Virus record (IMG/VR): IMGVR_UViG_3300028173_000069
Location: 1-21,955 of that record
DNA length: 21,955 nucleotides
Origin: a virus
Strand: one strand, 5' to 3'
Shown here: in pieces, positions 9,551 through 21,045 of the stretch
How positions within the stretch are numbered: position 1 is the first letter of the stretch
Layout: each line of letters begins with the position of its first letter
The notes under the pieces: model-generated
What the model was told of the DNA's origin: nothing
What the model saw: the letters and a program-made list of their open reading frames with translations, nothing else
The model's database searches: none
Position numbers and translations under genes: made by a program

Positions 9551-9736
9551 ATGAAGATAAAAGCAATATTAGATGATGCTAAGAAACAACCATCAAAAAT
9601 CCACCTCGAAGATTACAGAGAAATAATAGAAGTATTAAGAGATAAGGGCTACACTTGGAGAGAGGTAGCCACATTTCTGAACGACAGGGATGTACAAGTT
9701 GACCATACTACAATCTATAAGATGATGAGGAAATAA
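9551..9736 (+). CDS. Small helix-turn-helix protein, candidate regulator
   Basis: 61 residues, oriented against the structural operons. The C-terminal half (about residues 34-60) has YTWREVATFLNDR then VDHTTIYKMM, a helix-turn-helix pattern of the kind seen in TraK-like and resolvase-like DNA-binding domains, where the second helix reads S/D-H-T-T-I/L-Y. An AAGGAG Shine-Dalgarno lies 7 bases from the ATG and a perfect promoter lies upstream. By position it could control its own promoter, the divergent capsid promoter, and the leftward promoter at 10275-10302. Whether it represses or activates is not visible. Confidence 0.75.
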   Translation: MKIKAILDDAKKQPSKIHLEDYREIIEVLRDKGYTWREVATFLNDRDVQVDHTTIYKMMRK

Positions 9737-11129: not shown

Positions 11130-11309
11130 TTAAAAGTTTATTTCTTTTATCACAGAATCTGGCATAAAACGTAAACACGCAGGATAGACGGCTTTAGTTT
11201 TTAGTTTTTTGTTTTTAACTAATTCATAAACAGGTAGATTACTACCGCCTTCAACATAATCAAACACATACAGTTTTTCATCGCCATTTGTTATTATTAA
11301 ATCACTCAT
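11130..11309 (-). CDS. 59-residue hypothetical protein between MuF and scaffold
   Basis: Read directly: ATG 11307-11309 overlaps the MuF stop (ATGA), TAA at 11130-11132. The small protein has an N-terminal beta-like part (SDLIITNGDEKLYVFDYVE), a lysine-rich KNKKLKTK patch and one cysteine (VYPACLRF). No family is recognised. Translational coupling to the MuF gene supports expression; its role may be in head assembly or linked to the MuF C-terminal domain, for example as a chaperone or immunity-type partner, which is only a guess from adjacency. Confidence 0.65.
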   Translation of the reverse strand: MSDLIITNGDEKLYVFDYVEGGSNLPVYELVKNKKLKTKAVYPACLRFMPDSVIKEINF

Positions 11310-13249
11310 CTTAATCTTACCTCAATATCGATTCCCGCCTTTCTCAATTCTGCCTCTATCGCCTTCTTGGACGCTGGTGTTTTAACTAAAATATACTCAA
11401 CTTCCGCTAGGGTTAGCTTTCCGTATATCTGGGCTTCTACATACTCACCCTTTGTAACTCTAAGCAAATCTTTATAATGAGCTGAAGCCATAAAGTCATC
11501 TGCCTCTTTAAACGTGTTTACTGAGGCTTGATATGTTGTGTCTGTAGTGTGCCTAAAATTTCTGTAGAAACTCTCCTCATTAATCTTGTTAATAGGAGAT
11601 GGTGGTGACGACTGACCAACGCTCGTTGCGTTTCCATTATAAGAGTCGCCAAAGGTTACGGTTGTTCTTTTTCTCACCGAGTCTTTAAACACGATAATAT
11701 TCTCACCGTATTTAAAATCATCAATTCTATCAAAATCAAACTTGTCTTTAGATGCCACAAACCCATACTTAGGGAAGTTTGTAACATCGTCTATGTCGTC
11801 TATACCAAACACATCCTGCTCAAGCCCAATCCTTTCCATCCCTGCGGTTTTGTATGAGCCTTTCCCAGTTTGGAGACTATTCATAACTTCTTTTTGTCTT
11901 ATGGCTTGTTTTAGATTTTTCTGATTGAAAGCCATGTGTATCTTAACACTATCTTTTGATAATGCTTTTGTAGCCTGTTCACTTAAAACATCAACAGTTT
12001 CGCCTGTTATTCTCATACTAACCAAGTTATTCTTTGATGGTGTAATTTCCTCGCCCATAACACGCTTCAAATCCTTATCCCATCCTTGATTTGTTTTCTG
12101 TATTTCTTTTCGGGCTGTATCATAACTTTTTTCCAAGTTCACATACGGCACATCAAAGACAACATCATCAACCATTCCCAACTTGCTTTGTAACTGCCCC
12201 AAAGTCAGCGGGTTTCCACTCTGGTCAACTAAATCACTAAAGCCTAGTTTGCCGTCTTTCCACAGTTTGCGTTTGCCCTTGCCTAACACATCTTCTTGAA
12301 ATGCTTTAGGTTTTCCTTTGAGCCAATCTTCATAGCCTTTTTTCTTAGATACTTGACCATCCATACTTGCTCTAGTTGATTCGGGGATTTCTTTCATCTT
12401 ACGTTTAGCCCCTAACTCTTCCCAACTCTTAATAATTGGTACTTGGGTTGAGCGACAATTCCAATGAGCGGTTACTCCCGGCCACAAAATATTATGACCA
12501 ATAGGCTTACGATTGTTATCCCATGTTAAGCCGTCAAGGCTTTGGCAAGTGTGGGATGTTCTGTTGTCTAAAGTTGCTACCCACTCTACACCTTTAACAA
12601 TATCGTCATTCTCAGCGTATGTTTGTAGTCTAGCCTCGTTTGCTATTGATTGAATACTTGTTCTAACTAAGGCATCAGCACTTCTATAGTTGGCAAACAA
12701 AGCACCATCTTTATATCGGTTTACTTTCTTACCCACTAGGTTAGATATGATTTGGTCTGTAGTTTCACCCTTCATCATTCCAGTACGAACCGTATCAGAA
12801 AACTTTAGTCTGAATGCCTCACCTCTTCTAGCCCACCACTCTTTAGATGGTGCGCCTTCAAATATCGTATCACTCGCTATGGCTTTTAACATTCCACGGC
12901 TCATAGTCGTAGATGCTAGTTCAGCACTAATGGCTGTATTAAGGGATGCTACTGCTTGTGCCTCAGCCAAAGATGCCACCTGTGAAAGTTCGTCAAGGCT
13001 ATCCTTCGCAACTTGTACATACGCAGTTTTAATAGTCTCACGAGTCTGGTCAAGCAAAACCTTGAGCCTCTTCTTTTGTGTTTGGGACATCTTAGCATCC
13101 CATACGGTAGATTTCTTAATCGCATCTACTAAGTCTGATTCAAGTGTTTTGAGTTGTTTAAGTACACGTTTCTTAACCGTTGTCTCTAATCGTTGTAAAT
13201 CAACAGAGTGTCCGGTTATCTCGTCAAGTACCTTATCATTGACTGACAT
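11306..13249 (-). CDS. MuF-type minor head protein with DUF3626/ADP-ribosyltransferase-like C-terminus
   Basis: 647 residues. The N-terminal 180 residues are helical. Residues about 185-270 carry the MuF (SPP1 gp7) domain: R-T-S-I-Q-S-I-A-N-E-A-R, then TLDNRTSHTCQSLDG and a final HWNCRS with Cys235 and Cys265. The plain MuF protein would end near 300. The C-terminal half (about 435-620) reads VKIHMAFN, G-K-G-S, RIGLEQDVFG, FPKYGF, VRKRTTVTFGDS and YVEAQIYG, the same order as in the DUF3626 family as I recall it, which is thought to be ADP-ribosyltransferase-like. MuF proteins enter the capsid and may be ejected; polymorphic toxin C-termini on MuF proteins are documented. Start is coupled to the portal stop (TAATG at 13249). 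Enzyme activity is inferred. Confidence 0.85.
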   Translation of the reverse strand: MSVNDKVLDEITGHSVDLQRLETTVKKRVLKQLKTLESDLVDAIKKSTVWDAKMSQTQKKRLKVLLDQTRETIKTAYVQVAKDSLDELSQVASLAEAQAVASLNTAISAELASTTMSRGMLKAIASDTIFEGAPSKEWWARRGEAFRLKFSDTVRTGMMKGETTDQIISNLVGKKVNRYKDGALFANYRSADALVRTSIQSIANEARLQTYAENDDIVKGVEWVATLDNRTSHTCQSLDGLTWDNNRKPIGHNILWPGVTAHWNCRSTQVPIIKSWEELGAKRKMKEIPESTRASMDGQVSKKKGYEDWLKGKPKAFQEDVLGKGKRKLWKDGKLGFSDLVDQSGNPLTLGQLQSKLGMVDDVVFDVPYVNLEKSYDTARKEIQKTNQGWDKDLKRVMGEEITPSKNNLVSMRITGETVDVLSEQATKALSKDSVKIHMAFNQKNLKQAIRQKEVMNSLQTGKGSYKTAGMERIGLEQDVFGIDDIDDVTNFPKYGFVASKDKFDFDRIDDFKYGENIIVFKDSVRKRTTVTFGDSYNGNATSVGQSSPPSPINKINEESFYRNFRHTTDTTYQASVNTFKEADDFMASAHYKDLLRVTKGEYVEAQIYGKLTLAEVEYILVKTPASKKAIEAELRKAGIDIEVRLR

Positions 13250-14557: not shown

Positions 14558-15766
14558 CTATGCCCCTATAACCCTTGCCATCTTCGGCTTTCCTAAACGC
14601 TTAATCATTGGTTGTAGTGCGTATCTCAACGCATCTATGTAATGATTATTCGCATCAATAATCGTAGGTAATATATCTCCGGTAACTCTGTCAACCTTGT
14701 AACTATATTTCACAAACTCACTTGCTGTCTGTAAACATCTAGTGTGAATGTGTACCTTCCTAAAACTTCTAATATGCTCAATTCCATCTTCAACACTACC
14801 CGCCCACTTATGGACAGATTCAATCTTATATCCTTGTCTTTTAACGAAAGATATAGACTCTGGTCGTGCTGAATCTGCTCTTATTGTATATTGTTTTGAC
14901 TGCGGTATGGCATCAATTAACTTATAGGTGCTATCCAACTCAACTTGAGTGCCACCAGATTCATAGTCAATGTAAAGTTCCCTATCAATGATATAACATC
15001 TTAATACGGCTGTTGGGTCTTGTGAAAAACCCCAGTCTAGCCCGTAATAGAATACAACGCCTTCCGGTGCTTTAAACTCTTCAACGGCAAACTTACCTTT
15101 AAATATCTGTGATTCAGATGAAGTCTTACAATGCCCTTCCCAGATGTGAAGATAATCGTCATAGTCTAATTCTTTTTGATATTCTAACTCATCCCTTAAC
15201 TCATCTCCAAAGTACGGGTTATCCCAATAATTAACCTTAACAACTAATGCGTTATCTCTTTGCTCATTAACAACATACTTAACATAGGTTGGGTCTGTCT
15301 CTAGGTTTGGGTTAAACGATACCCATATCTCTGAACCTGCTTTACGAATAGTAGGTATTAGAATATCCCATGATTCATTACTAATCTTTTGAGCCTCTTC
15401 CACCCAACAAATATCCACACCCTCTAAAGACTTGATTTGCATCGGGTCGTGCTTTAATCCATGAAAAATAAACTCAGTACCATTCCTGCCAAAGATACCG
15501 TCACGGGTTACCCTATAGAAACTGCCAAGTTTTAATATCTCAATACATTGGGATAACAACTTATGTACAGACTGCTTCATTGAGCCTTGTACCTCACGAG
15601 TACATAAAACCCGCTTACGTTGTTTCACTCCCATAATTAGAAGTGTTAATGCGAAACTCCAAGACTTACCCGCACCACGCCCACCATAATAAACTTTATA
15701 TCTATAGTGTTTCCATAGTGGTTTAAATACTCTCGGTATTCTTACTGAAGGTTTCTTAGTCGGCAT
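14558..15766 (-). CDS. terL: Terminase large subunit (PBSX/XtmB-like)
   Basis: 402 residues from ATG 15764-15766, which overlaps the TerS end by 11 bases; an upstream in-frame TTG (15784) would add six residues but is less likely. ATPase: Walker A GGRGAGKS (about 28-35) and Walker B GVDICWVEEAQ (about 116-126) with the catalytic Glu pair. Coupling motif S-F-N-P-N follows. The RNase H-like nuclease carries acidic residues in GLDWGF (Asp244), RADSARPE (Asp298) and NNHYIDALRYA (Asp378). All catalytic positions are present, and length fits the family. It pumps DNA into the prohead at the portal and cuts the concatemer. The packaging mode is not decided by sequence alone. Confidence 0.95.
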   Translation of the reverse strand: MPTKKPSVRIPRVFKPLWKHYRYKVYYGGRGAGKSWSFALTLLIMGVKQRKRVLCTREVQGSMKQSVHKLLSQCIEILKLGSFYRVTRDGIFGRNGTEFIFHGLKHDPMQIKSLEGVDICWVEEAQKISNESWDILIPTIRKAGSEIWVSFNPNLETDPTYVKYVVNEQRDNALVVKVNYWDNPYFGDELRDELEYQKELDYDDYLHIWEGHCKTSSESQIFKGKFAVEEFKAPEGVVFYYGLDWGFSQDPTAVLRCYIIDRELYIDYESGGTQVELDSTYKLIDAIPQSKQYTIRADSARPESISFVKRQGYKIESVHKWAGSVEDGIEHIRSFRKVHIHTRCLQTASEFVKYSYKVDRVTGDILPTIIDANNHYIDALRYALQPMIKRLGKPKMARVIGA

Positions 15767-16127
15767 CTGGGTCAATAAACTCAACGACTAGATTCATGTC
15801 TCCATCAATATCCATCTCTTGTCTTTCAATGTACCCTCTGTTTCTACCTATGGTTTTAAGGAAGAAAATAGTAGCCGTCATGTTCTTGTTTTTAATCTCA
15901 CCCATCAATACAGATTCAGCAAAATCAATGTTCTCTTCTTTGATATTATCGCACTCTTTTTTAAAGGAGTCGAATTTCCCAATATAATTATAGTAGGTTT
16001 GTCTATCTATTTTCGCTGCCCTACAAGCGTGAGCAATGTTTCCAGCACTCTCTTTATAGGCTTTTAAGAAGTTCTTTTTATTATCTTCAGTTATCTGTTT
16101 TCTTACTGGTCTTTGTGATGTATCCAT
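15756..16127 (-). CDS. terS: Terminase small subunit
   Basis: 123 residues directly upstream of TerL. Residues about 15-50 form a helix-turn-helix: NFLKAYKESAGNIAHACRAA then IDRQTYYNYI, typical of TerS DNA-recognition domains, followed by a helical oligomerisation region and an acidic C-terminus (VVEFIDPDAD) likely to contact TerL. GGATAG is a weak Shine-Dalgarno 4 bases before the ATG. It would bind the pac or cos site to start packaging; none of its sites can be identified here. Confidence 0.88.
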   Translation of the reverse strand: MDTSQRPVRKQITEDNKKNFLKAYKESAGNIAHACRAAKIDRQTYYNYIGKFDSFKKECDNIKEENIDFAESVLMGEIKNKNMTATIFFLKTIGRNRGYIERQEMDIDGDMNLVVEFIDPDAD

Positions 16128-16130
16128 TGT

Positions 16131-16922
16131 CTATCCTTTCTTATTTCGTATGTGATTTGCTTCAGCATCGGGATGAACCTCGTTAGGCTTTGGCATATAA
16201 TAATTTGCTGTTTTGTATGGGTACATCTGCTTTTTACACGGTGTCATAATTACATATCCATCTGGTGGCAATGCTGACTCAGCCTTCATTAAAAAACTTT
16301 GCCTTCCACCTTTTGAACACACCCTATGAATACATAAACTCCCTAAATATCTATAGTTGGTATATCCCTCTGAATAAGCAACGCCCGCCCACAAACAGTC
16401 ATCAAATGAATATGGTCTATTTGGTAGTTGTAAAACAAGTTTAGCTATCTTCTTAGAAAATACAAAACCTCCACCTGTGTATATGAGTTTTTGCGAAACG
16501 AACTTATCTTTGTTATCCCTCTTCGCTATTAATGATTCGGTTCTTACCCAGTTACAGCTAATAATTCCTACTTTGCTTTCTAATGCTTTCTCTAATGCTG
16601 TTTTGTAATTAGTTTCTTTAATGACTTCCATATCGTCATCCATTGAAACCCATAATTCTGTATCGGGGTATTTCTCTAATACAGACACTTTTGCAGAATG
16701 TGGTCCCGACTTCTTATCATGCCATACAAACTCTAACCCCCATTCCTTTCTAATCTTTTGTAATGTTAGGAGGTTCTTTTTTACAATGTCCGGTGTTTCT
16801 TGAGCGACCACCACAACCTTGTATTCCGGCATCAGTTTATACAATGAATTAAGACACGCAAATAGTAGTGTTGGTCTATCCCCTGTTGTGGCTACTATAA
16901 TCCGAGTTTGCTCTACAATCAT
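16131..16922 (-). CDS. GT-A-fold glycosyltransferase-like protein
   Basis: 263 residues from ATG 16920-16922, which overlaps the upstream ParB-like stop as ATGA; a longer TTG start (16952) lies inside the upstream gene and is rejected. It opens with a strand and loop RIIVATTGDRPTLLFACLNSL, a nucleotide-sugar-binding-like N-terminus. A DDD triad (about residues 95-97, context VSMDDDME) suits a DxD metal site, followed by TGGGFVFS (149-156) and FDDCLW (173-178), which fit acceptor and catalytic acidic positions in GT2-like enzymes. No membrane segment is seen. Its target could be modified DNA bases, a virion protein or a cell-surface molecule. Location between ParB-like genes and terminase hints at DNA or virion modification. 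Confidence 0.75.
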   Translation of the reverse strand: MIVEQTRIIVATTGDRPTLLFACLNSLYKLMPEYKVVVVAQETPDIVKKNLLTLQKIRKEWGLEFVWHDKKSGPHSAKVSVLEKYPDTELWVSMDDDMEVIKETNYKTALEKALESKVGIISCNWVRTESLIAKRDNKDKFVSQKLIYTGGGFVFSKKIAKLVLQLPNRPYSFDDCLWAGVAYSEGYTNYRYLGSLCIHRVCSKGGRQSFLMKAESALPPDGYVIMTPCKKQMYPYKTANYYMPKPNEVHPDAEANHIRNKKG

Positions 16923-17416
16923 ACAGGGATAACCTTTGTCATTTCCATACAAACAGGACAGATTACTAACACTTCTTCTTGAGGCTCTTCATCTACCGCT
17001 TCTATATCCAGTTCCATTGACATATCTTCTGTTGCTATTCCGAACACACCGTCTAATGTTCCTTCAAAGAAGTTGAGCGTTTCACTCAAGTTTATAATGC
17101 TGTCTAATTCCTTTTGAAGTTCATCCTCGTTCCATTCTGTTAATTCATGAATACGGTTATCAATGATTCTTAACTCTCTAGCCTTCTTGTCGTCTATGTC
17201 TGCTATTACACACGGTACTGTATCCCATCCTAATTCTCTTACTGCTCTGAATCGGGTATGACCACTAATGATTGTATTCTGCCTATCAAGAATCAAAGGC
17301 ACTCTGAATCCATATCTCTCTATTGACTTTACTAGGGCTGGTACAGTTTCATCGTTGTCTCTAGGGTTTCTCCAGTACGGAGTAATGTCATCTAGTTTTA
17401 TATCTACAATATTCAT
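16919..17416 (-). CDS. ParB/Srx-fold protein with C-terminal CxxC, copy A
   Basis: 165 residues. The ParB-like nucleotide-binding domain covers about residues 1-95: ITPYWRNPRDND, then SGHTRFRAVRELGW (51-64) containing the G-H-x-R core, then ELRIIDNRIHELTEW. The C-terminal 20 residues end in ICPVC (152-156), a single cysteine knuckle that may pair with another protein to hold zinc. It aligns without gaps to its neighbour (17413-17958) through the first 100 residues with roughly 40 per cent identity by eye, so the two arose by tandem duplication. There is no separate HTH DNA-binding domain, so a classical partition role is unlikely. In phages such proteins accompany modification genes; activity is unknown. 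Confidence 0.85.
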   Translation of the reverse strand: MNIVDIKLDDITPYWRNPRDNDETVPALVKSIERYGFRVPLILDRQNTIISGHTRFRAVRELGWDTVPCVIADIDDKKARELRIIDNRIHELTEWNEDELQKELDSIINLSETLNFFEGTLDGVFGIATEDMSMELDIEAVDEEPQEEVLVICPVCMEMTKVIPV

Positions 17417-17958
17417 AGTCCTACCTTCTCTGCTTCAACACCAAATTCAGTACCGCAATGCTCACAGCAAATACTTACAATCCTATCTTGTGCTTTATCT
17501 ACTCTATCGCCAAATACATTATCAAAACCATCTGCTGACTTTTTAATATCTTCATCTGTTACTTCGCTTACATCTAAACCGAAGCTAGTTGTTAGGGCTG
17601 ATTCAATCTTCATGTCAAATTCTGACACTAGGTAATCTAATGCTCTTAATTCAACAACCAATAACTCATCATTCCATTCTGATATTTCTTGAATCTTGTT
17701 ATCAATAACTCTAAACTCTTTGTTCTTTTCATCTGACAAATCAGACGTTAAACAATCAATCTCAGTCCAGCCTAGTTTTTGTGCGGCCTTCAATCTAGCG
17801 TGTCCTGCTACAACCACGTTATTTTGGTCTACTACTATTGGAACTACATAGCCATAACGCTCATAAGCATCTGCTAGTTTATCAACTGTTTTATCATTGA
17901 TTCTAGCGTTACCCTCGTATGGCTTTAAATCGCTAATCTTCTTTTTGGTCGTTTCCAT
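17413..17958 (-). CDS. ParB/Srx-fold protein with C-terminal cysteine knuckle, copy B
   Basis: 181 residues. ParB-like domain: ISDLKPYEGNARIND, then AGHARLKAAQKLGW (51-64), then EFRVIDNKIQEISEW. The C-terminus carries SICCEHCGTEF (162-172), a C-x-x-C plus adjacent Cys like half of a zinc ribbon. The start ATG (17956-17958) lies 26 bases inside the end of the IbrB-like gene, with a GGAA Shine-Dalgarno; its stop overlaps the copy A start (ATGA). See copy A for paralogy. ParB-fold domains bind CTP or ATP in characterised proteins; the G-H-x-R motif here keeps the phosphate-contacting residues, so nucleotide binding is a reasonable inference. Confidence 0.85.
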   Translation of the reverse strand: METTKKKISDLKPYEGNARINDKTVDKLADAYERYGYVVPIVVDQNNVVVAGHARLKAAQKLGWTEIDCLTSDLSDEKNKEFRVIDNKIQEISEWNDELLVVELRALDYLVSEFDMKIESALTTSFGLDVSEVTDEDIKKSADGFDNVFGDRVDKAQDRIVSICCEHCGTEFGVEAEKVGL

Positions 17959-18508
17959 CTATGTATTCCTTTCTTAGTCTTAATTGTTTATCTGATTCCC
18001 AAGCGGTTCTGTATTCTACGTTAGCAAATAACTTAGAGAATCCTGTAAGGTGTTTAAGTCTTATAATCTCTTCAGCCTCCATGCCTAACTCTGAACAAAT
18101 TTCAGCATCTGACATTCCATTCTCTAGCATTTTGAATACCATGTCACTCATACCTTCAACCGAGTGTTTGCCTCTAGCCCTGTTGTGTCGCACAGTTGAT
18201 GCCATTCTGTCATTGATATCTTTCTTGATTACAACGATAGGTAGTTTGTTTCCAGTCCTGCGGTTAATCTCTTTATTAATCTTACAACAAGTGAATCTAT
18301 GAAACCCGTCAACGATTGTGTACATATCTCGTTCTTCGTCATAGAATGTTACGACCGGTTGTGTATAACCATCTGCCAAAATGGATGTTTGTAATAACTT
18401 TAATTCTGTCTTTGCTACTGAGTTTGGGTTGTAATTATTAGCCTCAATCTTATCTAGGTCAATCCATAAGACATGGCTGATTGGTTGTGATTCTCTTTCA
18501 TTAGACAT
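17933..18508 (-). CDS. IbrB-like ParB-domain protein
   Basis: 191 residues. The ParB-like domain has NNYNPN near residue 24, VDGFHRF (66-72) in place of the usual G-H-x-R loop, and RHNRARGKH (107-115), a phrase I recall from IbrB proteins. A helical region (GMSDAEICSELGMEAEEIIRL, about 131-151, quoted here only for position of a helix-turn-helix-like stretch) follows. It is adjacent to and overlaps by 8 bases an IbrA-like gene, the same pairing as ibrA-ibrB of Escherichia coli, which activate phage-borne eib genes. A strong GGAGG Shine-Dalgarno lies 6 bases upstream of the ATG. The molecular function of the pair is not established. Confidence 0.82.
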   Translation of the reverse strand: MSNERESQPISHVLWIDLDKIEANNYNPNSVAKTELKLLQTSILADGYTQPVVTFYDEERDMYTIVDGFHRFTCCKINKEINRRTGNKLPIVVIKKDINDRMASTVRHNRARGKHSVEGMSDMVFKMLENGMSDAEICSELGMEAEEIIRLKHLTGFSKLFANVEYRTAWESDKQLRLRKEYIDGNDQKED

Positions 18509-19601
18509 ATCTATCCTCCGTTACATCTTCTTTTTGTTTGTTATTTGCCACTCTGTAGTTATCCAACAAAGTGAAGTGATAATCGTTCTTTAAGATTGTG
18601 TTAATACAAACCCTGTAATATCGTTGTAAATGACCAAACCATCCATCCCATGTTTTAAAGCGTTTTAATATCTTATCCTTGCCAACACCTTCCGGCAATA
18701 AGTTCTCTGCCAAATAGTCTCTATACTCGTGCCACGTCTTAAACATATACGGTAGGTTTTTAGGGCATCCTAAGTCTTTGCCAAACTTACCTTCAGTGTC
18801 AATTCCCTTGAGTCTTTGCGTTAACTTAACCCATGTTTCTTTTTCCACTTCTTGAAGATACTTTAAATTAGATACTGATGTCTCATGGCACAGGCTTGAT
18901 ACTCTCATCTCTAATACCGGAACACCCCAACTAAACTGCTGGTCATAAACCCTGTTGTAGTTCCAGTTGTTATCATGAATTGATTTCCATACGTCTGTGT
19001 AACTCCAGTCATAGATTGGGTAGAACGTGTACTTGTCGTTATCCTTGTCTAGTAACTTACCCCACGTCTCACCCTTGTATGTCACAGCACCAGTTAAAGA
19101 TAATAAACGAGCCGGAGATTCTTCACCTCTAACGCCACCAATGTTTACAGACTTAGGCGCAAAGTCGTGCTTCATAATAGCTGTAAACATAGCCTTGAAT
19201 CTATCAGTTCCATATACGTTTTCAGTAATAGCGTATGGCACTCTAGGTCTCATCCACACATCCTCTTTGTCTTTATCCCAGCAGAATATCCACGGGTCAT
19301 CACTTGAGGTCGCATTAAAGATTTTCATAGGCATTTGAAACCACATAGGCTCTACTTCGTCCGAGGTCATCACCTCTTCCATCAAATCTATAGTTGCTTG
19401 AAGTTCCGCCTCTTGGTCAAGGAATAATACCTTTAAGGGTAGTCTATTGCGCTCTCGTGCCACTATTAAAGTTAATTCATATACGACAACCGAGTCTTTG
19501 CCACCGCTAAACGATACAACCACATCATCAAATTCATCATATAACCAACGAATCCTTTTTAGGGCTTCATCAAACACGTTGTTCTGTTTATATATTCTCA
19601 T
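18501..19601 (-). CDS. IbrA-like PAPS reductase-family PP-loop protein (DUF3440-like)
   Basis: 366 residues. The PP-loop SFSGGKDS (30-37) of the ATP pyrophosphatase/PAPS reductase family is intact, followed by VLFLDQEAELQAT (58-70). NIGGVRGEESPAR (153-165) and YPIYDWSYTDVW (194-205) are further family signatures. The length and C-terminal extension (WDGWFGHLQRYYRVC) match DUF3440/IbrA rather than metabolic CysH, and the CysH C-terminal ECGLH motif is missing, so assimilatory sulfate reduction is unlikely. PP-loop enzymes adenylate a substrate, so nucleic acid thiolation or another modification is possible. Its ATG overlaps the methyltransferase stop (ATGA), and its stop overlaps the IbrB-like start. 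Confidence 0.87.
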   Translation of the reverse strand: MRIYKQNNVFDEALKRIRWLYDEFDDVVVSFSGGKDSVVVYELTLIVARERNRLPLKVLFLDQEAELQATIDLMEEVMTSDEVEPMWFQMPMKIFNATSSDDPWIFCWDKDKEDVWMRPRVPYAITENVYGTDRFKAMFTAIMKHDFAPKSVNIGGVRGEESPARLLSLTGAVTYKGETWGKLLDKDNDKYTFYPIYDWSYTDVWKSIHDNNWNYNRVYDQQFSWGVPVLEMRVSSLCHETSVSNLKYLQEVEKETWVKLTQRLKGIDTEGKFGKDLGCPKNLPYMFKTWHEYRDYLAENLLPEGVGKDKILKRFKTWDGWFGHLQRYYRVCINTILKNDYHFTLLDNYRVANNKQKEDVTEDRYV

Positions 19602-20134
19602 AGTTTTAAACTCGTAAAGATAGTGTAATTTCCTTCGGTATATGTGTGACCACCCTCTAGGTTGTATTCTTCTATCTTGAAATGATTACTACTAGAACCA
19701 GCATATTCATAAGTTACAGGCGAATACCCTTTAGAATAAAACATTAAGTAATAGTCATCTTCTATGAATTTGAATTGAGAGTTGAAATAATCGGGATTAA
19801 CGTAATTCATAGAACCAAACAAAGATACGAAGGCTGTATGGTTTCTTCTAAAACCGTATTTCTCTAAAGTACAAACTCTTGTTTCGTACTCTGGAAATTT
19901 CTTATTTAGGATGCCTACCATTCCATGAGAAGGGTCAATGCCAAGATACTGATGCTCACTTAATGCCATTGTTTCTAAAAGCAAACCTGTACCGCATCCT
20001 ATGTCTAAGATACGCTTCTCTTTAAGTAAGAGTAAGTGTTGTTTTATGCGCTGGTCTTGCGCTTTTGATTCTTCATCGGAAAAATATGAATCGTATTGCT
20101 CCGCAATGGAATCGTAAAAATTCTCTGAATTCAT
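19598..20134 (-). CDS. Small class I SAM-dependent methyltransferase
   Basis: 178 residues from ATG 20132-20134, coupled to the upstream stop (ATGA); a TTG start at 20191 would overlap the upstream gene by 61 bases and is rejected. Motif I is ILDIGCGTG (42-50), with an acidic motif II in YLGIDPSHGM (63-72) and an N-terminal Y-D-S-I-A-E-Q-Y-D-S-Y entry helix typical of UbiE/COQ5-like methyltransferases. No N-P-P-Y or D-P-P-Y signature for adenine-N6 or P-C-Q for cytosine-C5 DNA methylation is seen, so a small-molecule, modified-base or lipid-like substrate is more likely than plain DNA methylation. The C-terminal substrate region is short. Confidence 0.85.
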   Translation of the reverse strand: MNSENFYDSIAEQYDSYFSDEESKAQDQRIKQHLLLLKEKRILDIGCGTGLLLETMALSEHQYLGIDPSHGMVGILNKKFPEYETRVCTLEKYGFRRNHTAFVSLFGSMNYVNPDYFNSQFKFIEDDYYLMFYSKGYSPVTYEYAGSSSNHFKIEEYNLEGGHTYTEGNYTIFTSLKL

Positions 20135-20730
20135 ACAATCGGTTTCTTGTTTATTATTACAGTTAGTGCTAGAGGTGCGCCCATTGACCAATACTTGTGG
20201 TCAATAACATCCCATAATCGGTATGCCCATCCTCTAAAGTTTTCATTATAACCATACTTTCTTATCAATAATACGAAATCATCATAAGGCATCTTCCCAA
20301 CCCAATTCTTGCGTACTGCGTAATAGTGTGGATTCTTTGGCATAGTTTTAGCAAATACAAACTCATTAGCCTGTACCGCTTCCTCTACATCCTCTATTGA
20401 ATAGTCATCTAGCCACGGCATCTCAAAACCTTGTAAATGATTCATTGTTAAAAATCCATACTGAAGTTCTGACCTCACCTGCCAATCTACATCTATACGG
20501 TATTGTTTACCGTCATCACCTTTGTAAGTTACCCCGAATCCATCCGTCTCAACAGGTGTTAAAACCAAACCTATCTCAAGTTCTTTATCAAGTTTCGGTT
20601 GCCACTTATCCACATGGTAACGATACTGTCTCATGCTCTTTTCCGGCACTAGGCAATATCTGTCATTACAGATGTAGAAAAGGCTATCGTTTAATATGTC
20701 GATAGCCCTCGCTTTACTTATTAGCCCCAC
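20131..20730 (-). CDS. 199-residue uncharacterised phage protein
   Basis: It starts at GTG 20728-20730, directly after the stop of the preceding gene, with no good Shine-Dalgarno; expression may depend on coupling. No family is recognised. Residues about 16-28 contain FYICNDRYC. The C-terminal third is aromatic-rich (KNPHYYAVRKNWVGK, then FVLLIRKYGY, then AYRLWDVIDHKYWSMG), which resembles conserved phage proteins of unknown role next to methyltransferases, as far as I can recall. No membrane segment. It is the first gene of the accessory block and overlaps the methyltransferase start. Confidence 0.75.
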   Translation of the reverse strand: MGLISKARAIDILNDSLFYICNDRYCLVPEKSMRQYRYHVDKWQPKLDKELEIGLVLTPVETDGFGVTYKGDDGKQYRIDVDWQVRSELQYGFLTMNHLQGFEMPWLDDYSIEDVEEAVQANEFVFAKTMPKNPHYYAVRKNWVGKMPYDDFVLLIRKYGYNENFRGWAYRLWDVIDHKYWSMGAPLALTVIINKKPIV

Positions 20731-21045
20731 TTAGAAAGGAATATCATCATCAAACTGATTAACCCCATTTACTGCGGGTGGTGGTGATGCTACTGATTGC
20801 TCGTCCGGTTTTGCGTATGGCTCTTTAATTTTTCCGGTTAACATTTTACTACCGTTCTTAGTGAGGCGGTATTGCCCCGTTTCTTTATCTGTTGAAAACC
20901 ATAAGCCAATTTCCTTTTCTACTCCATCAAAGTTTACCTTGATTGTTAAGATTGGTGACTTACCTTTTGCTTGTACGCCTTCAGCGCAGAATAAACCGTT
21001 ATCAACAAATGCTAATGCGGTGTTTGTATTGTCGTAATCTGACAT
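20731..21045 (-). CDS. SSB-like small protein with acidic interaction tip
   Basis: 104 residues. The last residues read FDDDIPF, the hallmark acidic tip by which bacterial and phage SSB proteins recruit repair and replication partners. It is preceded by a Pro/Ala-rich linker (SVASPPPAVNGVNQ) as in SSB. The N-terminal 70 residues are beta-rich (ILTIKVNFDG, IGLWFSTDKETGQYRLT), shorter than the usual OB fold and without an obvious canonical SSB signature. It could be a reduced or divergent ssDNA-binding protein. GGAG Shine-Dalgarno lies 7 bases upstream of the ATG (21043-21045). The neighbouring ERF annealing protein strengthens a role in recombination. Confidence 0.78.
   Translation of the reverse strand: MSDYDNTNTALAFVDNGLFCAEGVQAKGKSPILTIKVNFDGVEKEIGLWFSTDKETGQYRLTKNGSKMLTGKIKEPYAKPDEQSVASPPPAVNGVNQFDDDIPF

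Follow-up and report, generated by a model that had tools for sequence, protein, structure and literature searches.

ParBc proteins co-occur in phages with the proven CmoX/CmoY DNA hypermodification pathway, which carboxymethylates and amidates cytosine and uses an AMP-forming ligase (PMC12783734). Here, we analyzed a block of seven minus-strand genes at positions 16131 to 20730 of the viral IMG/VR record IMGVR_UViG_3300028173_000069, whose complete 21,955 bases (probably part of a larger genome) are termed the window herein. The block encodes IbrA, IbrB, two additional ParB-fold proteins (ParB1 and ParB2), a methyltransferase (MTase), a glycosyltransferase (GT), and a protein of 199 amino acids that matches no family library and ends in a conserved domain which we named FAKTM after its motif. 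Modification of DNA is quite likely to be the function of these genes, and the block is likely to be one version of a modular cassette with which phages hypermodify their own DNA. The gene set is widespread in phages and has barely been described.

To define the core of this gene set, IMG/VR was searched with an alignment of the FAKTM domain that was blind to IbrA (loci from all searches are denoted by L numbers); many contigs in IMG/VR are of limited length, and the queries are biased toward relatives of the window. The search of viral contigs returned 80 FAKTM loci, 74 of which also encode IbrA, and the six loci without it include one that ends in an IbrB fragment (L175) and one that ends shortly past FAKTM (L130). 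The reverse test used 31 loci that were found by IbrA alone and had flanking sequence of 2.5 kb or more to either side; a ParB-family gene was present in all 31, IbrB in 30, and FAKTM in 26. When neighbors were clustered without prior labels, only genes of the block and terminase genes were found in more than 20 of 98 nonredundant loci. The recurrent neighbors of IbrA in these loci were IbrB, which lies immediately downstream of IbrA in 82 of them, a ParB protein with one C-terminal CxxC, and FAKTM, and a large terminase subunit (TerL) of the window type was located within 4.5 kb in 53. The identity of IbrA spans 34 to 85% (median, 48%) across 58 FAKTM loci, so the linkage reflects more than simple recent descent. 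The core, made up of IbrA and IbrB with FAKTM and one or two ParB proteins, is kept across very divergent phages, usually beside terminase genes. An earlier note on this DNA, made from the sequence alone, had called for a neighborhood analysis of whether all seven genes travel together; the core genes do, but the MTase and GT genes are swapped, and the full set is present only in the closest relatives. Because these two genes are variable, we rejected the seven genes as one obligate unit.

The FAKTM domain comprises the C-terminal ∼85 residues (114 to 196) of the 199-amino-acid protein (positions 20131 to 20730, minus strand) and is characterized by the motif FAKTMPxxPHxYxxR ... YW ... IINR/K. 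The gene matched no family in Pfam, PHROG, NCBIfam, or PADLOC, and tblastn searches of cultured phages with this gene, as well as with the GT gene, returned nothing useful. The domain was present in 77 proteins from viral contigs, either as a stand-alone protein of ∼90 amino acids or, often, fused to a class I MTase, and the gene was rejected as a lone orphan because its C-terminal half recurs in this way. Judged by sequence, this gene and the adjacent class I S-adenosylmethionine (SAM)-dependent MTase gene (19598 to 20134, minus strand; Methyltransf_25, 2e-10) look like a split form of the FAKTM-MTase fusion. The predicted structure of FAKTM has a pLDDT of >90 across most of the domain; a PDB sequence search with the domain gave nothing useful, and a search of a viral fold library gave a single, uninformative 93-amino-acid match. 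The variable N-terminal ∼110 amino acids of the protein (window positions 20400 to 20730) were found only in a few of the closest relatives (L002, L004, L005, L008, and L124) and were poorly modeled.

The last gene of the block (16131 to 16922, minus strand) encodes the GT, which by itself gave no significant match in Pfam, PHROG, or NCBIfam. Its AlphaFold model (pLDDT, 85.9) matched the GT-A fold of GalNAc-T2 (E value, 5.8e-10; probability, 1.00), its DDD motif is invariant in 11 homologues, and a relative encoded in L034 weakly matched Glycos_transf_2 (E value, 0.0048); the predicted fold and the invariant motif thus bear out the GT identity proposed earlier. DNA homology between the window and L005 (86%) breaks off with the final base of the ParB2 stop codon and sets in again at position 16103, within the gene for the small terminase subunit (TerS). 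In L005, the slot of the GT holds a 195-amino-acid glucosyltransferase of phrog_854; in L006 and L124, it holds a DPPW methyltransferase, and in L007, it is empty. The GT gene is an exchangeable cassette slot that is swapped exactly among near relatives.

The variable enzymes around the core, encoded between ParB, FAKTM, and IbrA, were DPPW amino-methyltransferases (N6_N4_Mtase-like in sister loci), GNATs, phrog_854-type glucosyltransferases, window-type glycosyltransferases, class I methyltransferases, and a SAM decarboxylase; the version in the window contains one methyltransferase and one glycosyltransferase. Directly upstream of IbrA we found DPPW genes 24 times, GNAT genes 22 times, FAKTM-MTase genes 10 times, MTase genes 5 times, and GT genes 9 times. 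Parsimony counts on the IbrA tree showed that the presence of decorating genes flips 7 to 17 times and that of the SAM decarboxylase gene speD twice; GNAT, DPPW, GT854, and MTase genes each changed at least 11 to 17 times versus 8 times for FAKTM, in counts made without a shuffle comparison. The SAM decarboxylase was observed inside the block in L013, L018, L021, L028, L148, and L194 (the family was identified in L015; AdoMet_dc, 3e-22), which hints at aminopropyl transfer. A protein of ∼167 amino acids with an HTDPRYPRYTW-type motif and weak cupin/hydroxylase-like matches also recurs in the slot (L082, 6501 to 7004; L061, 4312 to 4824; L098, 4024 to 4527) and may be a dioxygenase that belongs to the decorating set.

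Family searches confirmed the identities that had been assigned earlier to IbrA, IbrB, the two extra ParB-fold proteins, and the MTase. IbrA (18501 to 19601, minus strand) is an N-type ATP pyrophosphatase of the PAPS reductase/adenylyltransferase-like type with a DUF3440 domain (PF01507, 1.7e-15, 57.9 bits versus a cutoff of 22.5; PF11922, 5.4e-9, 36.5 bits versus a cutoff of 25; phrog_2302, 6.2e-84). Across 174 sequences, its SGGKDS PP-loop and a GxRxEES region are conserved, and its nearest solved relatives in the PDB are the sulfate adenylyltransferase subunit CysD (1zun) and an FAD synthase (8rom). That IbrA is a PP-loop enzyme related to CysD and FAD synthase suggests that it performs the activating step by adenylylation, which we regard as possible. 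The earlier note had suggested that the modification might contain sulfur, and a phosphorothioate or thio-base made by a system like Dnd, Ssp, or BREX-4 would fit the PAPS-reductase fold that IbrA shares with DndC, BrxP, and SspD (PADLOC matches, 3e-10 for BrxP and 2.5e-7 for DndC). This part of the proposal found no support, and such chemistry is very unlikely: no Cys is conserved in the 174 IbrA sequences (the best column reaches 75% and the next 33%), which disfavors sulfur transfer, whereas DndC carries a cysteine dyad (PMC10853773). Moreover, IbrA falls far below the cutoff of the curated DndC model (21.1 bits versus 290.4) and fails the curated CysH/PAPS reductase model (25.7 bits versus 165), whose catalytic Cys is not conserved; its nearest solved relatives are adenylyltransferases, and the seven proteins of the block, from a 22-kb fragment, include no desulfurase, DndD, or DndE. 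Sulfur chemistry was rejected on the grounds of the missing Cys and of the partner genes missing from the block.

IbrB (17933 to 18508, minus strand) is a ParB/Srx-fold protein (phrog_2159, 3.5e-72; ParB_N, 23.6 bits, slightly below the Pfam cutoff of 26.3) with the motifs NPNxVA, DGFHR, and TxRHNRARGxH (87 sequences). ParB1 (17413 to 17958, minus strand; PF02195, 4.7e-7, 30.2 bits; phrog_620, 9.5e-41) and ParB2 (16919 to 17416, minus strand; PF02195, 6.4e-12, 45.8 bits; phrog_620, 4.9e-42) both exceed the PF02195 cutoff of 26.3 bits and are related to the ParB portion of phage proteins in which ParB is fused to a DNA methyltransferase (phrog_498). ParB2 is of the ParB1 type and likewise has a CxxC segment at its end. 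The CxxC was found near the C terminus in 81 of 82 ParB1 homologues and never in two copies; this half zinc knuckle hints that two subunits jointly form one zinc site.

Hundreds of phage records contain homologues of IbrA and IbrB, as do bacterial genomes and archaeal mobile elements, and the sole label of these homologues is that of a regulator. The two proteins of the window match their families over the full length, and their genes follow the usual order close to a terminase, as in mycobacteriophage Phlyer and Faecalibacterium phage Taranis. Within the collection of cultured phages, FAKTM-MTase proteins were detected only in Microbacterium phages of Rogerhendrixvirus, with modest E values (5e-6 and 4e-4); they are annotated as methyltransferases and are encoded near an IbrA that is 41 to 43% identical to that of the window. 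The Hendrix and Leaf records contain GT, FAKTM-MTase, and GNAT genes followed by IbrA, and at the opposite end IbrB, ParB, ParB, and TerL (Hendrix IbrB is 53% identical; 2.6e-59). The Hendrix genome is circularly permuted according to the available passages of PMC7302621, which do not discuss the block; the ends of the record therefore adjoin, and the order of the core equals that of the window. The right-end operon of Rogerhendrixvirus (Hendrix, Leaf, Dewdrop, and Rasputia) thus shares, in Hendrix and Leaf, the order FAKTM-MTase, IbrA, IbrB, ParB, ParB, and TerL; it differs by an extra GNAT gene and one or more glycosyltransferase genes upstream and has been annotated gene by gene only.

Other cultured phages encode IbrA and IbrB with no detected FAKTM, often beside an SNF2-type helicase (2.2e-11 and 4.1e-9 in Streptococcus and Flavobacterium phages, respectively), and this combination represents an alternative layout of the IbrAB system. 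Such helicase genes lie directly upstream of or near the IbrA and IbrB genes in Streptococcus, Flavobacterium, and Lactobacillus phages (L039, 2776 to 4011; L037, 2240 to 3451; L038, 2806 to 3984). Arthrobacter phage Salgado encodes IbrA and IbrB with a ParB and a methyltransferase, with FAKTM undetected, and Serratia phage eta, which has unmodified DNA, was uninformative here. Many chromosomal IbrA-IbrB pairs (L218, L220, L225, L266, and others in L199 to L278) have a gene of ∼120 to 130 amino acids between or beside them, which is GNAT-like in L266 (7e-9) and has no clear Pfam match in L225.

DNA is the substrate suggested by the SNF2 helicases, the DNA-type methyltransferases, the ParB proteins, and the placement of the block, and a nucleic acid modification locus, as proposed in the earlier note, is the best-supported reading of these genes. 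Several points weigh against it. We found no report of a modified nucleoside measured in any carrier, the gene content is known only within the 22-kb fragment that forms the window, FAKTM is without a known fold (no PDB fold match at an E value of ≤0.001), and most chromosomal IbrA/IbrB lineages lack FAKTM, which is thus not required for every function of IbrAB. A further point is that tRNA modification commonly involves PP-loop enzymes, class I methyltransferases, and GNATs, and the MTase of the window weakly matches tRNA methyltransferase families (phrog_4752, 5.8e-8), so the cassette might instead modify tRNA or mRNA and sustain phage translation. We consider an RNA substrate unlikely, since sister loci contain SNF2 helicases, DPPW methyltransferases of the DNA type, and ParB proteins, and since the terminase genes adjoin the block. 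Finally, IbrA and IbrB have been called coactivators of prophage transcription (PMC8813620, PMC4490671), and ParB-fold proteins bind DNA; the pair could accordingly activate phage genes, with ParB1 and ParB2 as DNA-binding or partition proteins and the MTase and GT as unrelated accessories. This explanation is improbable, because it leaves unaccounted for the nearly obligate link to FAKTM (74 of 80 loci), the recurrent decorating enzymes, the exact slot swap, and the active-site loop of an ATP pyrophosphatase, and the reported activation could itself follow from DNA modification. The descriptions of IbrA and IbrB that we found, in which they are regulators, mention neither the FAKTM domain nor the exchangeable decorating enzymes, and our literature search, which left most subscription papers outside its scope, found no paper tying IbrAB to DNA modification.

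GT-A glycosyltransferases, methyltransferases, and acyltransferases are also typical of surface glycan modification, and the enzymes might decorate a host cell surface glycan or a virion protein, leading to seroconversion or superinfection exclusion. That role would fit poorly with a core in which ParB proteins accompany an ATP pyrophosphatase, with the SNF2 helicase of sister loci, with the absence of any glycosyltransferase from many loci, and with a block that encodes neither a membrane glycosyltransferase nor a flippase partner; it is very unlikely. A variant that is compatible with modification of the phage's own DNA is that the block marks DNA for packaging and that the mark is recognized or tolerated by the adjacent terminase. 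The proximity of TerL in the loci counted above and its position after IbrB-ParB-ParB in Hendrix speak for it; on the other hand, accessory genes are commonly inserted at terminase genes, and some loci (e.g., L113, L132, and L135) are not beside a recognizable terminase, so we give this variant only a small chance.

For a cassette that hypermodifies phage DNA, the following sequence of steps might be envisaged. IbrB, ParB1, and ParB2 would bind nucleotide as well as DNA, on which they would load or position the enzymes. With ATP as the donor and with release of pyrophosphate, IbrA would then adenylylate an oxygen atom in a DNA base, a type of reaction that TilS, GMP synthetase, and FAD synthase carry out on their own substrates, and the activated position would be replaced, probably by an amine, creating a chemical handle; that the handle is an amine is itself rather doubtful. 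The FAKTM protein might present the site to the MTase, a role guessed from the fusions, and the slot enzyme would add the last group, which would be a sugar in the window. Being bulky, the product would keep host nucleases from acting, a protection that is plausible, and swapping of the slot enzyme would alter the end group as defenses adapt. Taken as a whole, IbrA, IbrB, ParB, and FAKTM would form a new base-activating machine that combines adenylylation of a base oxygen, a lysidine-like amine handle in DNA, and exchangeable methyl, acyl, sugar, or aminopropyl caps, a model that we put forward as speculative.

The layout of the block in the window was as previously described: all seven open reading frames (ORFs) were confirmed, they are packed with overlaps of 4, 4, 8 (between IbrA and IbrB), 26, 4, and 4 bp from the FAKTM gene to the GT gene, and they lie between recombination and packaging genes. 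Two start positions were corrected, that of the MTase from 20191 to 20134, based on the homologue in L007 and on the overlap, and that of the GT from 16952 to 16922; each correction gives a 4-bp ATGA-type overlap with the upstream neighbor. An SSB-like gene (20731 to 21045) flanks the block, with ERF further upstream, and downstream are TerS, TerL, and portal genes, with a 3-bp gap between the GT gene and the TerS gene (15756 to 16127, minus strand; phrog_4044, 6.4e-7), which adjoins that for TerL and marks the boundary of the block. The dN/dS ratios of the six block genes other than the GT gene were ∼0.03 to 0.13 against L005, L124, and L004 (0.10 to 0.13 for the FAKTM gene); the MTase gene reached ∼0.28 against L007, where dS is near saturation. 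These six genes evolve under purifying selection; the GT gene is 100% identical in L004 and missing from the other relatives compared, and thus no dN/dS was obtainable for it.

Two other regions of the window are worth recording. The gene at 11306 to 13249 (minus strand) encodes a MuF-like head protein of 647 amino acids with a DUF3626 C terminus (4.1e-7), which is 357 amino acids long in L005 and L007; DNA homology with L005 is broken over approximately positions 11144 to 12209, and a 59-amino-acid ORF follows (11130 to 11309, minus strand). This looks like an extension of the polymorphic toxin type together with a possible immunity gene. Amid the minus-strand late region, a small plus-strand ORF (9551 to 9736) encodes a helix-turn-helix motif.

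The analysis ties IbrA and IbrB to a conserved, previously undescribed domain and to rotating decorating enzymes and turns this link into a testable functional claim, for which the cultured Microbacterium phages that carry the block provide a means. If the speculative base-activating model holds, IbrAB would be misnamed as a transcription regulator, and a family of new DNA bases would exist. If the functional claim is correct, phages would have an additional, widespread route to modified DNA. This would bear on restriction and CRISPR as well as on the reading of phage genomes by nanopores and would offer a source of new DNA-modifying enzymes.

Among known systems, Dnd, Ssp, and BREX-4 resemble the block in having a PAPS reductase-fold protein (DndC, SspD, and BrxP), and Dnd also has a ParB superfamily partner, DndB; the block differs by an IbrA with no conserved Cys and by its lack of a desulfurase, DndD, and DndE. 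A T4-type pathway of hydroxymethyl-pyrimidine glucosylation, based on a thymidylate synthase-like hydroxymethylase, was set aside, as PF00303 was absent from 18 related records, including the complete Hendrix and Leaf genomes, the window itself being a fragment. The GNAT-type acyltransferases in the decorating slot of many sister loci are reminiscent of Mu Mom, but the window contains no GNAT, and none of the sister proteins passes the Mom model (best match, E value of 0.035, 14.2 bits versus a cutoff of 27.1). For phage systems with hypermodified bases, the abstract of Iyer et al. (2013) reportedly predicts lysidine-like pyrimidines and bases derived from modified SAM derivatives, which would fit a PP-loop enzyme and a SAM decarboxylase. 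The CmoX/CmoY pathway shares with the block a SAM-type enzyme, an ATP-using activating enzyme, and ParBc proteins in phages, as well as the principle of a handle that is then decorated. It differs in that the MTase of the window lacks the SPPC motif and that the block proteins include an N-type ATP pyrophosphatase in place of an AMP-forming ligase. The block is therefore probably a variant within phage DNA hypermodification, in which the FAKTM domain and its link to IbrAB are new to the descriptions that we found.

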